Assembly: GCA_018667995.1 (NCBI GenBank)
Contig: JABIQT010000290.1
Coordinates: 1-5,193 of the forward strand
Length of the DNA stretch: 5,193 nt
Direction of reading: 5' to 3'
Origin: Candidatus Latescibacterota bacterium
Lineage (GTDB): Bacteria; JAAXHH01; JABIQT01
The stretch's first letter is position 1. Each line of letters starts with the position of its first letter. The notes under the pieces were generated by a model that saw only the letters and a program-made list of their open reading frames with translations, was not told the origin of the DNA and did not search any database. Of the stretch, positions 2-4,572 are shown one piece after another. A program made the position numbers and the translations under genes.

Positions 2-79
2 ACCCCACCAACCCTACCGGACGCCGTGTGGATCAATCCGCCAAAACCCGTACAGGAGGACATAGCCGAACTACACTAA
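2..79 (+). CDS. Possible C-terminal end of an unidentified upstream protein (partial)
   Basis: A reading frame is open from the left edge and ends at TAA (77-79), giving 25 residues that include LPDAVWINPPKPVQEDIAEL. The composition looks like ordinary protein, with acidic, hydrophobic and proline residues and few Cys or His. The other two + frames here read as cysteine-, arginine- and threonine-rich sequence. The fragment is too short to assign to a family, and I do not recognise it. A competing frame is open from the edge to 213 but has a non-protein-like composition. The call rests on composition alone. Confidence 0.35.
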   Translation, partial: TPPTLPDAVWINPPKPVQEDIAELH

Positions 80-431
80 ATTCACAAAAAAAGTGTCCCA
101 TTTTTGTTGTCACATTCCGGTGGACTCCGAGTGAGTGTATCGCGCGACGCTACCACTCGACTCAGTATATGCGACCTGTTAATATTGTCATAGCTCACTG
201 TCACGAGTGTTGAAGAAACACTGATGTTCATACATTTTGAGGGCCCTATTGTCAAGAGGAATCAGCCTCTCCGGCACCTGAAATTGGTTGCGATAAGGTG
301 CTGTTCGGCTTATGATATATCTTGTCGCAAAGCCTTCGCACTTGATACCTGTCTGAACCGGATTTGGAGGCAGTGTTACCGAATGTTTGAACATATTTGC
401 TGTCACATCTAACAGATCTCGGAGAACCTGA
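80..431. other. Intergenic region upstream of the hemD-hemE fusion, no supportable gene
   Basis: This 352-base stretch is AT-richer than the genes around it. All three + frames are broken by stops, and the short open stretches (for example 194-412) are rich in Cys, His and Arg, which is typical of non-coding sequence. It holds a candidate promoter (288-316). It also holds a small imperfect hairpin at 133-158, where GAGTG-TA pairs with TA-c-CACTC around a GC-rich loop; there is no T-tract, so it does not look like an intrinsic terminator. Because the gene that follows lacks the first half of HemD, I read the region in three frames for that missing half. The only trace is a faint resemblance in frame 2 around 236-346, where a Gly-Pro is followed by LRHLKLVAIR. 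It is too weak to annotate as a pseudogene. Confidence 0.5.
288..316 (+). promoter_or_regulatory. Candidate sigma70-type promoter for the hemD-hemE fusion
   Basis: TTGCGA (288-293, 4 of 6 to the -35 consensus) lies 17 bases upstream of TATGAT (311-316, 5 of 6 to the -10 consensus). Transcription would start near 323 and leave a leader of about 110 bases before the ATG at 432. Such matches arise by chance in AT-rich DNA, and the host's sigma factor preferences are unknown, so this is only a candidate. Confidence 0.25.
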
Positions 432-434
432 ATG
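421..434 (+). promoter_or_regulatory. Ribosome binding site and start codon of the hemD-hemE fusion
   Basis: GGAG (421-424, extended by one A) sits 7 bases upstream of the ATG at 432. An in-frame TGA occupies 429-431, directly before the ATG, so the reading frame cannot extend upstream. The good spacing and the adjacent stop together fix 432 as the earliest possible start, and support it being a real start. Confidence 0.5.
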
Positions 435-1952
435 CCTTTTGACTTTGGAAAGTTCACTGTCGCCCTCTGTCTCACTTCTGACCAGGAAGACGCGCTCCTC
501 GCAAGCGTGACGACACGTGGTGGAGAGTCTTTGATCGCCATCCATGGCGACGGTGATTCGTATGGGATTATGTTGAACCAGATGAATGAAGGAAAGGTCG
601 ATGTCCTCCTTTTTACAGATCCGGATGCTGCCCGTGGCCTATTTCACATGGCATCTCAGCGCAATGAGCTTGGTGCACTCATGGATTCCGTGCGACATAC
701 TGTTATCGGTTCCGTCGGCGGTGCTACCACACAGGAGCTCCAGAAGCATGCGGTGAGCGTCGATTTTGAGTCTGACCGAATGGACCCGGAGGACCTGATC
801 GCAGCCATTGCTCGGATCAGCGAGCATCTTGTAGCCAAGAAACGGTCGGCCCATAACGCAGGACTCACGACTATATACTGGCGTCGGACGGACATGACTT
901 GGCCACTTGAGCAAGATCACCACAATATCTGGGCAGAATCTGTTTTTCTAAAAGCCTGCCGCGGAGAACCGGTGGACTACACACCCATATGGATTATGCG
1001 CCAGGCTGGAAGGTACCAGCGTGAGTTTCGCGATCTGCGTGCCCGTGTCAGTTTTCTGGAGGTGTGCAAGACGCCGGAATTGGCGGCAGAAGTCACGCTG
1101 ATGGCAACTGAAAGACTAGGGGTCGATGCTGCCATCATCTTTTCTGACATACTGCCTCTTCTTCAACCCATGGGATTCGAGCTTGAATACATCAAAGGTA
1201 CCGGACCTGTGATTCATAACCCGCTCAGGTCAAGCACCGCCGTGGACCAGATCCTTGAAGTAGATGCTCAATCTATGTCATATGTATACGAGGCCATCCG
1301 CCTCTCGAGACGGGCGCTGCCGCCGACGGTTCCACTCATCGGTTTCTCGGGCGCACCTTTTACACTAGCCGCCTATGCCATCGAGGGCGGCTCATCCCGA
1401 AACTACCAGCATACAAAAATGACCATGTACAATGATCCGGGCTCCTGGCACGCCTTCATGGAAAAACTGGCGCGAGCTATCACGGCATACTTGAATGAGC
1501 AGATTATGGCTGGCGTTCAGGCGGTTCAGCTGTTCGACAGTTGGGTCGGCTGCCTTTCGCCCGATGACTATAGGGAATTCGTCTTGCCCCATATGGGTTA
1601 CATATTCTCGCATTTGCTACCGGATGTGCCATCGATACATTTTGGCACGGGCACCTCGACTCTGTTGAAGCATATGCAGGAAGCCGGAGGCGATGTGATC
1701 GGAATCGACTGGAGGGTCGACCTTGCTGAGGCGCGCGAAAGACTCGGTTACGATACCGTTGTGCAGGGCAACCTTGACCCTGTGATTCTGTTTGCTTCGC
1801 AGACACAGATCAAGCAACACGCGACCGCAATCCTCCACAAGGCTGAGAGGCGCCCAGGGCATATCTTCAACCTGGGCCACGGCGTACTTCCCGGAACACC
1901 GGAAGACAACGTTACCGCATTGATAGATATCGTTCACGAGCACCGAGTGTAG
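432..1952 (+). CDS. hemE: Fusion of a partial uroporphyrinogen-III synthase (HemD-like) domain with uroporphyrinogen decarboxylase (HemE)
   Basis: The protein has 506 residues. Residues 155-506 form a full-length HemE, which decarboxylates the four acetate side chains of uroporphyrinogen III to give coproporphyrinogen III in the cytosol. Visible HemE signatures are MRQAGRY (189-195, with substrate-binding Arg190 and Arg194), FSD with Asp239, GFSGAPFTLA (304-313), EGGSSRNY (318-325), FDSWVGCLSPDDY (368-380) and NLGHGVLPGTP (480-490, with His483). Residues about 6-135 resemble the second half of HemD: a GK-x-VAL strand, then VDVLLFTDPDAARGLF (56-71), then VIGSVGGATTQELQKHAVSVDF (91-112, quoted as motif positions for VIGSVGGATT and the Val-Asp-Phe end). 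The first half of HemD is missing, because a TGA lies directly before the start codon. A 20-30 residue linker joins the domains with no stop. An internal ATG at 894 (Met155) would give a HemE of 352 residues, the family's normal size, behind a weak GGA motif. HemE function is near certain. The HemD identity is likely from its motifs, but synthase activity is doubtful because half the fold is absent. Confidence 0.93.
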   Translation: MPFDFGKFTVALCLTSDQEDALLASVTTRGGESLIAIHGDGDSYGIMLNQMNEGKVDVLLFTDPDAARGLFHMASQRNELGALMDSVRHTVIGSVGGATTQELQKHAVSVDFESDRMDPEDLIAAIARISEHLVAKKRSAHNAGLTTIYWRRTDMTWPLEQDHHNIWAESVFLKACRGEPVDYTPIWIMRQAGRYQREFRDLRARVSFLEVCKTPELAAEVTLMATERLGVDAAIIFSDILPLLQPMGFELEYIKGTGPVIHNPLRSSTAVDQILEVDAQSMSYVYEAIRLSRRALPPTVPLIGFSGAPFTLAAYAIEGGSSRNYQHTKMTMYNDPGSWHAFMEKLARAITAYLNEQIMAGVQAVQLFDSWVGCLSPDDYREFVLPHMGYIFSHLLPDVPSIHFGTGTSTLLKHMQEAGGDVIGIDWRVDLAEARERLGYDTVVQGNLDPVILFASQTQIKQHATAILHKAERRPGHIFNLGHGVLPGTPEDNVTALIDIVHEHRV

Positions 1953-2096: not shown

Positions 2097-3545
2097 ATGG
2101 CGCATCGTGTTATTATCATCGGGGCCGGCATTACCGGATTGAGTGCCGCACACCGTCTACAGGAGCTTCAGGATTTCCCCGCGCAAATTGACCTCAAGAT
2201 TCTTGAGGCGAGCGAGCGGCCGGGTGGCACCATTGAGACAGTAGAACGAGATGGCTTCCTCGTTGAAAAAGGCCCCGATTCCTTCCTCTCCTCTAAGCCC
2301 TGGCTACTGAATCTCTGCAAACGATTGAAAATCATCGATCGAGTTGTACAAACCAACAGCGATAATCGCCGATCATTCGTGGTATATCAGGGAGCCCTAC
2401 ATCCCCTGCCTGAGGGCTTCCTGATGATGGCCCCCACCCGTTTACGTCCGTTCATCACCTCATCGCTCTTTTCGTGGGCAGGAAAACTGAGAATGGGATT
2501 GGATCTCGTCCTTCCCCGTGCAGAACCCAGCGATGACGAAAGCGTTGCCTCTTTTGTCCGGAGACGACTTGGACGCGAGGCGCTGGAACGCGTAGTGCAA
2601 CCATTGATAGGTGGCATATATACGGGAGACCCCGAAAATCTCAGCCTCCGCGCAACCATGCCACGCTTTCTTGAGATGGAGGAAAAACACGGCAGTGTCA
2701 TAAGGGCCATGTGGCGTGAGCAGAGACAGGCCGCTTACCGTGCAAAGAGCAGGGGATCTGCTGACAGCGGCGCCCGATACAGCATGATGGTCTCCTTCGA
2801 CCGAGGCATGCAGACTATTGTCGACGAATTGGTGAGAATACTTCCTGACCAAACTCTCCAATTGGGACGCAAGGCCACGGGAATTCGACGTCTCGGCACG
2901 GAATGGCAGGTCACCACCTCTGCCGGTGCAGTGCATACGGCCGATGACGTTATGATCGCACTCCCCTCTTACAAAGCAGCGAACTTGGTGAAGGATACTG
3001 ATCCTGAACTGGCAAGACGGCTATCAGGGCTGTCTTATGCGTCGTCTGCCATCGTCAACTTCGCATACGATCGTTCAGATATCCCGCACGCTCTGGACGG
3101 TTTCGGCTTTGTGGTTCCAGAAATTGAGGGGAGAAACATCATAGCGGGATCATTCAGTAGTATCAAATTCCCGAATCGTGCCCCCGATGGCAAAGTGCTT
3201 CTCAGGGCATTTGTAGGCGGCGCCATGCAGGCACATCTATACGATATGGATGACGAAGAGATTGAGCACCTTGCCAGCCAGGAACTCTTAGATCTTATGG
3301 GAATACAGGCAGATCCGCTATGGTCAATTGTCACCAGATGGCCGCTCTCAATGCCTCAATATCTTGTGGGTCACATGCAGCGCACTGAGCAGATTCAGAC
3401 ACATGTTTCTCGGCACACCGGACTGACGCTCATGGGTAACGCCTACGCCGGTGTCGGTCTACCAGACTGCGTTCGTTCTGGTGAGGACGCTGCAGAAAGG
3501 GTTATCTCCCGTTTGCAGCCCCAGGAAGCAGTTCTTCAGGCTTGA
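2097..3545 (+). CDS. hemY: Oxygen-dependent protoporphyrinogen/coproporphyrinogen oxidase, HemY type (HemG)
   Basis: This 482-residue FAD enzyme removes six electrons from a porphyrinogen near the end of heme synthesis, typically at the inner face of the membrane. The N-terminus has the dinucleotide-binding motif GAGITG (9-14) after a hydrophobic strand, then ILEASERPGG (35-44), with Glu37 expected to bind the FAD ribose. GFLVEKGPDSFL (53-64) and QPLIGGIYTGDP (168-179) are typical of the family. The C-terminal FAD signature runs over 443-469, including GNAYAGVGLPDCVRSG (447-462). The length is normal and both FAD motifs are intact. The start at 2097 is the only one that keeps the glycine motif near the N-terminus; its Shine-Dalgarno is weak (GGG at 2090-2092). 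Whether the substrate is protoporphyrinogen IX or coproporphyrinogen III cannot be told from sequence, and no ferrochelatase or HemQ gene is in view to decide it. The glycosyltransferase gene starts 4 bases after its stop. Some databases name this family hemG, which is unrelated to the E. coli flavodoxin-like HemG. Confidence 0.93.
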   Translation: MAHRVIIIGAGITGLSAAHRLQELQDFPAQIDLKILEASERPGGTIETVERDGFLVEKGPDSFLSSKPWLLNLCKRLKIIDRVVQTNSDNRRSFVVYQGALHPLPEGFLMMAPTRLRPFITSSLFSWAGKLRMGLDLVLPRAEPSDDESVASFVRRRLGREALERVVQPLIGGIYTGDPENLSLRATMPRFLEMEEKHGSVIRAMWREQRQAAYRAKSRGSADSGARYSMMVSFDRGMQTIVDELVRILPDQTLQLGRKATGIRRLGTEWQVTTSAGAVHTADDVMIALPSYKAANLVKDTDPELARRLSGLSYASSAIVNFAYDRSDIPHALDGFGFVVPEIEGRNIIAGSFSSIKFPNRAPDGKVLLRAFVGGAMQAHLYDMDDEEIEHLASQELLDLMGIQADPLWSIVTRWPLSMPQYLVGHMQRTEQIQTHVSRHTGLTLMGNAYAGVGLPDCVRSGEDAAERVISRLQPQEAVLQA

Positions 3546-3549
3546 TACG

Positions 3550-4572
3550 ATGAGCCAACCACGTGTCTCTGTCTTGATGCCGGTACACAACGCAGAGCAT
3601 ACCCTTCCCGAAACTCTCCAGAGCATCCAGAACCAAACCTACACAGAAATGGAGATCGTCATCGTAGATGACGGTTCGAGCGATGATAGCTTACACATCC
3701 TTGAAGCTGCTCGAGAGCAGGACCCAAGGCTGATCATTTCCGCACAGCCTCATCGTGGGCTGATTGCCACACTGAACGAAGGCCTCTCGCTATGCCGTGG
3801 TCCTTTTGTAGCACGCATGGACGCCGACGATTTGATGCATCCTGAGAGAATAGAGAAACAGGCTGCTTTACTAGCATCGCAAGCGGACCTCAGCGTGGCG
3901 AGCTGTCTGGTGGAAACAATCGCCGTTCCTGAGGTAGGTGAGGGCATGAAGATCTACGAAGGCTGGCTGAACGGGCTTATGCATCACGACGACATCGTCC
4001 GTGAGATCTTCATAGAGAGTCCGGTCGCTCATCCTTCCGTGATGTTAAAGCGCCATGAGATTGACCAATTGGGCAGATATCAGGACAGAGGCTGGCCAGA
4101 GGACTATGACCTTTGGCTTCGGTATCATCATGCAGGAAAACGCTTCGAGAAGGTTCCGGAAGTACTCCTATACTGGCGAGACCACCCGGAACGCGCAACC
4201 CGCACCGACAGCCGTTACTCCGTGGAGAACTTCATTCGTACCAAGGCTCACTACCTGGTTGCTGGACCACTGAGACGTTGCCATGATGTGTTAGTCTGGG
4301 GAGCTGGTCAAACCGGGCGACGCCTGTCAAAACACCTCATACGCCTGGAGCGGTCACCAAGTCTCTTCATTGACATCAACCCGGGCAAGATCGGAGGCAC
4401 TCTAAGAGGGATACCTATCTCGTCTGCGGATGACCTTGGAGAGCTCTGGCCCAGATTCAAACGCCCGCTACTTTTGGTCGCAGTGGCCTCTCGTGGAGCC
4501 CGAGGCCTGATACGTAAACGATTAGCAGAGCTAGGGCTAATCGAGGGTACCGACTACTTATGCGTCGCATAA
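3550..4572 (+). CDS. Family 2 glycosyltransferase with C-terminal Rossmann-like domain
   Basis: The protein has 340 residues. Residues 1-235 form a GT-A fold glycosyltransferase: VSVLMPVHNAE (6-16), IVIVDDGSSDDS (36-47) for nucleotide-sugar binding, the metal-binding MDADD (90-94), HPSVMLKR (161-168), and WPEDYDLWLRY (182-192) with the probable catalytic base Glu184-Asp185. Residues about 246-340 form a second domain with VWGAGQTGR (249-257), FIDINPGKIGG (273-283), LLLVAVASRGAR (307-318) and the ending EGTDYLCVA. This resembles the nucleotide-binding alpha/beta tails on some bacterial GT2 enzymes. No transmembrane segment or signal peptide is visible, so it is probably cytosolic. It should transfer a sugar from a nucleotide donor, perhaps onto a surface polysaccharide or lipid; the acceptor is unknown. 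The frame is open back to an ATG at 3451 inside hemY, but 3550 is preferred: it lies 4 bases past the hemY stop, behind an AGG 9 bases upstream, and puts the first strand at the N-terminus. Two stop codons (TAA TAA) end the gene. Confidence 0.88.
   Translation: MSQPRVSVLMPVHNAEHTLPETLQSIQNQTYTEMEIVIVDDGSSDDSLHILEAAREQDPRLIISAQPHRGLIATLNEGLSLCRGPFVARMDADDLMHPERIEKQAALLASQADLSVASCLVETIAVPEVGEGMKIYEGWLNGLMHHDDIVREIFIESPVAHPSVMLKRHEIDQLGRYQDRGWPEDYDLWLRYHHAGKRFEKVPEVLLYWRDHPERATRTDSRYSVENFIRTKAHYLVAGPLRRCHDVLVWGAGQTGRRLSKHLIRLERSPSLFIDINPGKIGGTLRGIPISSADDLGELWPRFKRPLLLVAVASRGARGLIRKRLAELGLIEGTDYLCVA

Follow-up and report, generated by a model that had tools for sequence, protein, structure and literature searches.

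Gene organization at the locus

The window, that is, the whole 5,193-bp stretch of DNA that was analysed, is itself the contig, and its base 1 is the contig start. It encodes a truncated HemD-like domain fused in one frame to a complete uroporphyrinogen decarboxylase (HemE), followed by hemY. The features, with the evidence for each, are as follows.

421–424, + strand: GGAG, likely ribosome-binding site, 7 nt 5' of the ATG (sequence)
432–1952, + strand: truncated HemD-like domain fused to complete HemE, a single open reading frame of 506 aa (ORF listing, Pfam, NCBIfam, recurrence in 12 genomes of the same order)
456–542, + strand: strand-helix-strand opening HemD domain 1, residues 9–37 (predicted structure, N-terminal profile tests)
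540–554, + strand: place of the missing domain 2, flanked by residues ~37 and ~41 (secondary-structure comparison, shared 33-residue spacing)
552–857, + strand: C-terminal part of HemD domain 1, residues 41–142, ending in a long helix at 119–142 (HEM4, tblastn, 1wd7 superposition)
840–935, + strand: linker with the motif KKR.A...G..T..W.R.DM.W, common to locus L014 and other close full-length fusions (alignment)
915–1949, + strand: complete HemE (TIGR01464, 1uro superposition, catalytic positions)
2097–3545, + strand: hemY, protoporphyrinogen oxidase (TIGR00562, 335 bits; tblastn of neighbours)

The coding part of the fusion gene (432–1949) begins with an ATG and specifies a HemD (HEM4) piece and a complete HemE. 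A TGA at 429–431 abuts the start codon and, together with the GGAG 7 nt 5' of the ATG, fixes the N-terminus and makes further in-frame HemD sequence upstream impossible; tblastn of the HemD parts of L014 and L019 against the window found no HemD remnants upstream in other frames. HEM4 (PF02602) matched residues 49–124 to profile positions 162–231 of 231, with a score of 31–34 bits (cut-off 27.5) and E-values of 1.5e-7 to 2.4e-8, and the HemE profiles matched residues 171–504 (PF01208, 433 bits; TIGR01464, 414 bits, cut-off 303). The occurrence of the two matches in one frame is not due to chance. The original prediction, made from the sequence alone, had described one uninterrupted frame with a HemD piece followed by a complete HemE and had proposed a HEM4 profile search of the N-terminal part; both the frame and the HemD identity are borne out by matches above cut-off.

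The HemE part scores as a TIGR01464 equivalog (413.6 bits against a cut-off of 302.95, profile positions 2–338 of 338), superposes on 1uro over 343 residues (Z 49.0), and keeps the catalytic positions R190, R194, D239, Y315, S370, and H483 in the expected motifs, which we take to correspond to R37, R41, D86, Y164, S219, and H339 of the human enzyme. Most of the catalytic residues are invariant across 28 aligned proteins, and the gene is the sole good hemE match in the window's genome, the next being a distant 26% relative on contig C810. The window protein is predicted to have HemE decarboxylase activity. A neighbouring hemY is common to most relatives; the full-length fusions L058 and L060 show the order fusion, hemH, hemY, and in the window no hemH lies between the fusion and hemY, hemH being located elsewhere in the genome (C1134). 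Directly after hemY lies a family 2 glycosyltransferase (3550–4572), the C-terminal part of which (residues ~246–297) has a Rossmann or CoA-binding look at a score just under the cut-off, and the window ends with the start of a CNNM-domain membrane protein (PF01595; 4652–5191), cut by the contig end.

The N-terminal module is domain 1 of HemD

Domain 1 of HemD (uroporphyrinogen-III synthase, U3S) is formed by ~35 residues at the N-terminus and ~90 at the C-terminus of the protein, with domain 2 inserted between these segments, and the active site is the cleft. The window piece is a discontinuous domain 1, in which the first ~37 residues are joined to the C-terminal ~100 residues and domain 2 (~140 residues) has been cut out. 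In the predicted structure of the window protein (mean pLDDT 88.9, pTM 0.88; pLDDT of the HemD domain mostly 80–94), a strand (residues 9–14), a helix (19–28), and a strand (32–37) are followed by a helix at residues 41–52. In the model of the full-length fusion L058 (identical to L014), the corresponding strand (9–12), helix (18–27), and strand (31–34) are followed by domain 2 and only then by the helix at residues 181–191. The lost stretch of ~140 residues equals residues ~38–177 of L014, the HemD part of which shows 43% identity to the window over nt 591–902 (tblastn).

Residues 7–136 of the window model superpose on domain 1 of Thermus thermophilus uroporphyrinogen-III synthase (1wd7, 1wcx, 3d8n), with 124 residues of the 1wd7 chain (8..260) aligned at 1.8 Å (Z 18.4, VIA-align), and the full-length fusion superposes on the same chain over 251 residues. 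The window model is not independent of homology, as the folding alignments contained full-length relatives. The best 50 Foldseek matches were all HemE-type folds, the HemD match appearing only with VIA-align, and the truncated domain alone gave chance matches only when compared by sequence with the PDB. In contrast to the Thermus enzyme, the window protein lacks domain 2 and the interdomain cleft.

In profile tests, 12 of the 13 N-termini in the truncated family scored 5–9 bits with the start of domain 1 but about 0 with the end of domain 2; that of the window protein, having diverged too far to discriminate, scored 0.8 and 0.4 bits, respectively. MAFFT alone placed the N-terminal ~30 residues ambiguously. 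Since the first ~40 residues, outside the HEM4 match, are also HemD and represent the start of domain 1, the missing part is an internal domain, and secondary structure, superposition, and the family N-terminal profiles identify it as domain 2, of ~140 residues. The alternative that the family merely lost the N-terminal half of HemD was rejected, because the ~30 N-terminal residues fit the start of domain 1 better than the end of domain 2 and the superposition begins at residue 8 of the 1wd7 chain. The piece had initially been taken for the second half of HemD; its HemD identity stands, but what is retained is the N-terminal strand-helix-strand plus the C-terminal part.

By descent, the module belongs to the HemD superfamily, as judged from its PF02602 score and its Z of 18.4 to 1wd7, but it falls short of an active two-domain HemD, having domain 1 only and covering HEM4 positions 162–231 only. 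The domain-2 motifs RGPK, EPNTW, VQEYG, and VY.W, which are invariant or nearly so in full fusions, are absent from the truncated form, and conserved domain-1 positions of the full fusions, e.g. P177, P182, K257, M258, G259, and E264, are gone from every truncated copy examined. With these motifs and positions lost, the truncated protein is very unlikely to have U3S activity, consistent with the earlier contention that its active site cannot be complete, half of the cleft (domain 2) being missing.

Recurrence of the truncated fusion and selection on its parts

Among 16 genomes of the phylum that were examined, 13, the window's included, carried the truncated fusion; the other three had a full-length HemD-like-HemE fusion (G001), a plain HemE (G011), and a contig starting inside hemE (G014). 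A search of related genomes, which the original prediction had proposed, thus yielded the same architecture in 12 further genomes of the same order. The spacing across the junction, counted between the GG in the first helix-strand turn and the T (S in one protein) of LL(F/L)T, was 33 residues in 13 of 13, which suggests a single deletion event. An assembly artefact was rejected, the frame and the junction being the same in 13 genomes. No relatives were found in viral contigs. The HemE of G011 (L180:3682–4755), from the same family, has no HemD part at all, apparently owing to complete loss, and branches within or beside the truncated fusions; in at least one lineage, then, the module can be done without.

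The selection estimates come from sister genera (genus g3); the window's own lineage is represented by one genome. The pooled pN/pS in the truncated family was 0.26 for the module, 0.14 for HemE, and 0.08 for the linker, the lowest of the three parts, although the linker is short (about 37 codons). Pairwise dN/dS of the module was 0.14–0.37 in seven pairs, with bootstrap upper 95% bounds of 0.31–0.69, and that of domain 1 in close pairs of full fusions was about 0.06–0.26. The truncated domain is therefore under purifying selection in sister genera and is not decaying freely; compared with full fusions, the constraint is somewhat relaxed, yet it is present. The linker (window 840–935) is better conserved than either other part of the truncated fusions, although it varies between distant full-length fusions.

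Full-length fusions and the origin of the truncated form

In G001, which belongs to the same order, L014 is a 688-aa frame encoding a full-length HemD-like-HemE fusion. Using the full-length fused HemD part as a query, 84,980 species genomes were scanned, and among the best 80 of 270 relatives, the HemD-like domain ran in frame into HemE in 34 (of these, L058 comes from the same genome as L014, and L076 is frameshifted further on). According to the depositors' labels, the hosts included Dadabacteria, Acidobacteria, Omnitrophota, Armatimonadetes, Abditibacteriales, FCPU426, Tectomicrobia, and others. A HemE with half of HemD at its N-terminus had been regarded as unfamiliar; an N-terminal HemD on HemE proves not to be rare, as full-length fusions are spread over many phyla. 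The literature searched, mostly without subscription papers, contained descriptions of HemC-HemD, CobA-HemD, and NnaR, and none of a HemD-HemE fusion.

The full-length fusions (L014/L058 from Candidatus Latescibacterota NC_groundwater_1462, L061–L067 from Dadabacteria, L074 and L099 from Acidobacteria) share with the window protein the order of parts, a HemD-like domain preceding HemE within a single frame, and the HemE clade. They often have hemY close by, and the linker of the nearest ones is homologous to that of the window. They differ in having both HemD domains (~275 aa), whereas the HemD-like part of the window protein is incomplete for want of domain 2. In a HemE tree (64 rows, quick method), the 13 truncated proteins grouped with G011's plain HemE in one set (SH-aLRT 97), which sits beside L014 (99) within a larger group of full-length fusions (90). 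The simplest history would be a full fusion that lost domain 2, followed by complete loss in G011; the direction of change rests on this nesting, as the tree was not formally rooted.

A separate HemD in the same genomes

The window's genome contains an intact 257-aa hemD directly after hemC on another contig (HEM4, 213 bits), which answers the earlier call for a search for a second, full-length hemD. Likewise, 26 of the 27 genomes with a full-length fusion encode another HEM4 protein, which in most cases is the better match of the two, the sole exception (G076) being a small draft, and the possibility that the fused HemD is the hosts' only U3S was rejected on this ground. At the second-HemD loci (L138–L161), a CobA sequence lies upstream in the same frame in 23 of 24, and L139 ends at a contig edge. 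Where the second HemD is fused to CobA, one genome has a HemD domain on each of the two uroporphyrinogen III branch enzymes. Within the window's order, CobA-HemD was found in the g3 genomes tested and in G001, and cobA and hemD are separate in the window's genome and in G013.

In a FastTree phylogeny, canonical HemD lay on one side of a 100% branch, and the fused and stand-alone HemD-like domains lay on the other; the HemE-linked HemD is a lineage separate from canonical HemD. An intact separate hemD had been named in advance as grounds for dismissing the fusion as an assembly artefact; such a gene was indeed found, but the dismissal does not follow, since this hemD is unlinked and of another HemD lineage, and the fusion is found in 13 genomes. 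Among profile models, PRK07239 (NnaR family) gives the full-length fused domain its best score (168 bits), canonical families scoring far lower, and the domain's best PDB match is Thermus U3S (E 4e-17). The HemD domain of NnaR is reported to be catalytically inactive in Streptomyces and has been suggested to sense HMB or uroporphyrinogen III (PMC11162112, PMC6277429), so it would be unsafe to take even the full-length fused domain for a synthase. The stand-alone HemD-like members L116:2203-4849, L137:3323-4816, and L075:2926-4840 adjoin nirA (nitrite reductase), sirohaem synthesis, or moaA genes, neighbours that are in line with an NnaR-like tie to nitrate/nitrite metabolism.

No free domain-2 piece was detected in the window's genome, where PF02602 at E 10 recovered only the fused domain and one complete HemD, nor, at E 0.1, in other genomes of the same order, including the 96% complete G002. 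The window's genome is 85% complete, and a domain-2 gene could therefore have been overlooked there.

Role of the truncated module

We consider it probable that the window protein is a working HemE with the non-catalytic remains of a second HemD-like enzyme at its N-terminus, the HemD module being most likely a non-catalytic structural or regulatory appendage. The ancestor would have had a full-length HemD-like domain fused to HemE, and in an order-level ancestor, one in-frame loss would have taken out all of domain 2, leaving domain 1 as a folded module closed on itself and ending any U3S activity of the chain. The U3S reaction would then be provided by the separate canonical hemD, which lies beside hemC here and is fused to cobA in most relatives. 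The module and its conserved linker were probably retained for support of HemE, through folding, packing, or oligomer or partner contact, a regulatory contact being a less likely reason; for the present role of the module, we infer support or regulation. The first reading of the domain as a degenerate remnant or a scaffold was sensible in view of the incomplete U3S site and is partly upheld: the remnant is one of domain 1, derived from a full-length fusion and kept by selection.

It is rather unlikely, though worth weighing, that the module has a sensory or regulatory function, with domain 1 still binding a tetrapyrrole, linear or cyclic, or a protein partner and tuning HemE where the pathway branches at uroporphyrinogen III. 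On this view, a regulatory role like that proposed for NnaR would go back to the full-length HemD-like domain, which agrees with that domain's best score, to PRK07239, with its position across a 100% branch from canonical HemD, with the inactivity and sensing role reported for the NnaR domain (PMC11162112, PMC6277429), and with the second HemD in 26 of 27 genomes. However, Thermus U3S, crystallised as a U3S, falls in the same sequence neighbourhood (E 4e-17), and in the truncated form the interdomain cleft in which a ligand would sit is gone, along with several conserved domain-1 positions. Loss of these positions would also suit a passive relic, kept merely for want of removal so far, as would the drop in HEM4 score (141 bits for the full fusion, 32 for the window, below 22 for relatives) and the complete absence of the HemD part in G011; moreover, some of the constraint may stem from the need to keep the attached HemE from misfolding, and such an effect is not easily distinguished from a positive role. 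We nevertheless regard a relic as improbable, given dN/dS values with upper bounds well below 1 in all seven pairs, an intact frame with an identical junction in 13 genomes, and a confidently predicted fold.

Retention of both activities, with the protein making uroporphyrinogen III and channelling it to HemE as was once envisaged, would accord with the consecutive steps of HemD and HemE and with the two HemD domains of the full-length versions, but is scarcely credible with domain 2, half of the U3S interdomain cleft, absent and a separate complete hemD present. We give just as little credence to another early suggestion, that the protein is half of an enzyme completed in trans by a separate domain-2 piece: split enzymes exist in principle, but no free domain 2 was found in the window's genome or in other genomes of the order, the 96% complete one included. 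More speculatively, each competitor for uroporphyrinogen III might carry its own HemD (CobA-HemD for sirohaem/B12, HemD-like-HemE for haem), the HemE-linked copy serving as a branch-point control or docking module for which domain 1 alone is sufficient; we hold this idea only tentatively.

The window protein, in which a working HemE with a non-catalytic domain-1 module is our preferred reading, resembles NnaR (PRK07239) in having a HemD-like domain beside a second HemD and joined to another functional domain. NnaR differs in having both HemD domains and a DNA-binding partner instead of HemE, and the C-terminal part of the window protein is HemE rather than an NnaR-type DNA-binding domain. In CobA-HemD and HemC-HemD, HemD is likewise joined to an enzyme that precedes or follows it around uroporphyrinogen III (PMC4921024, PMC11237513), but the partner enzyme is a different one, and the HemD is complete and of the canonical lineage.

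HemD-like-HemE fusions are widespread and coexist with a second HemD, mostly CobA-HemD. Because the cleft is gone while the rest has been kept by selection, the truncated fusion separates catalysis from other function and amounts to a natural deletion experiment, in which any effect of the fused HemD on HemE is set apart from HemD catalysis. Full fusion, truncated fusion, and plain HemE occur within one order, and their comparison could tell whether the HemD part serves channelling, regulation, or mere support of HemE.
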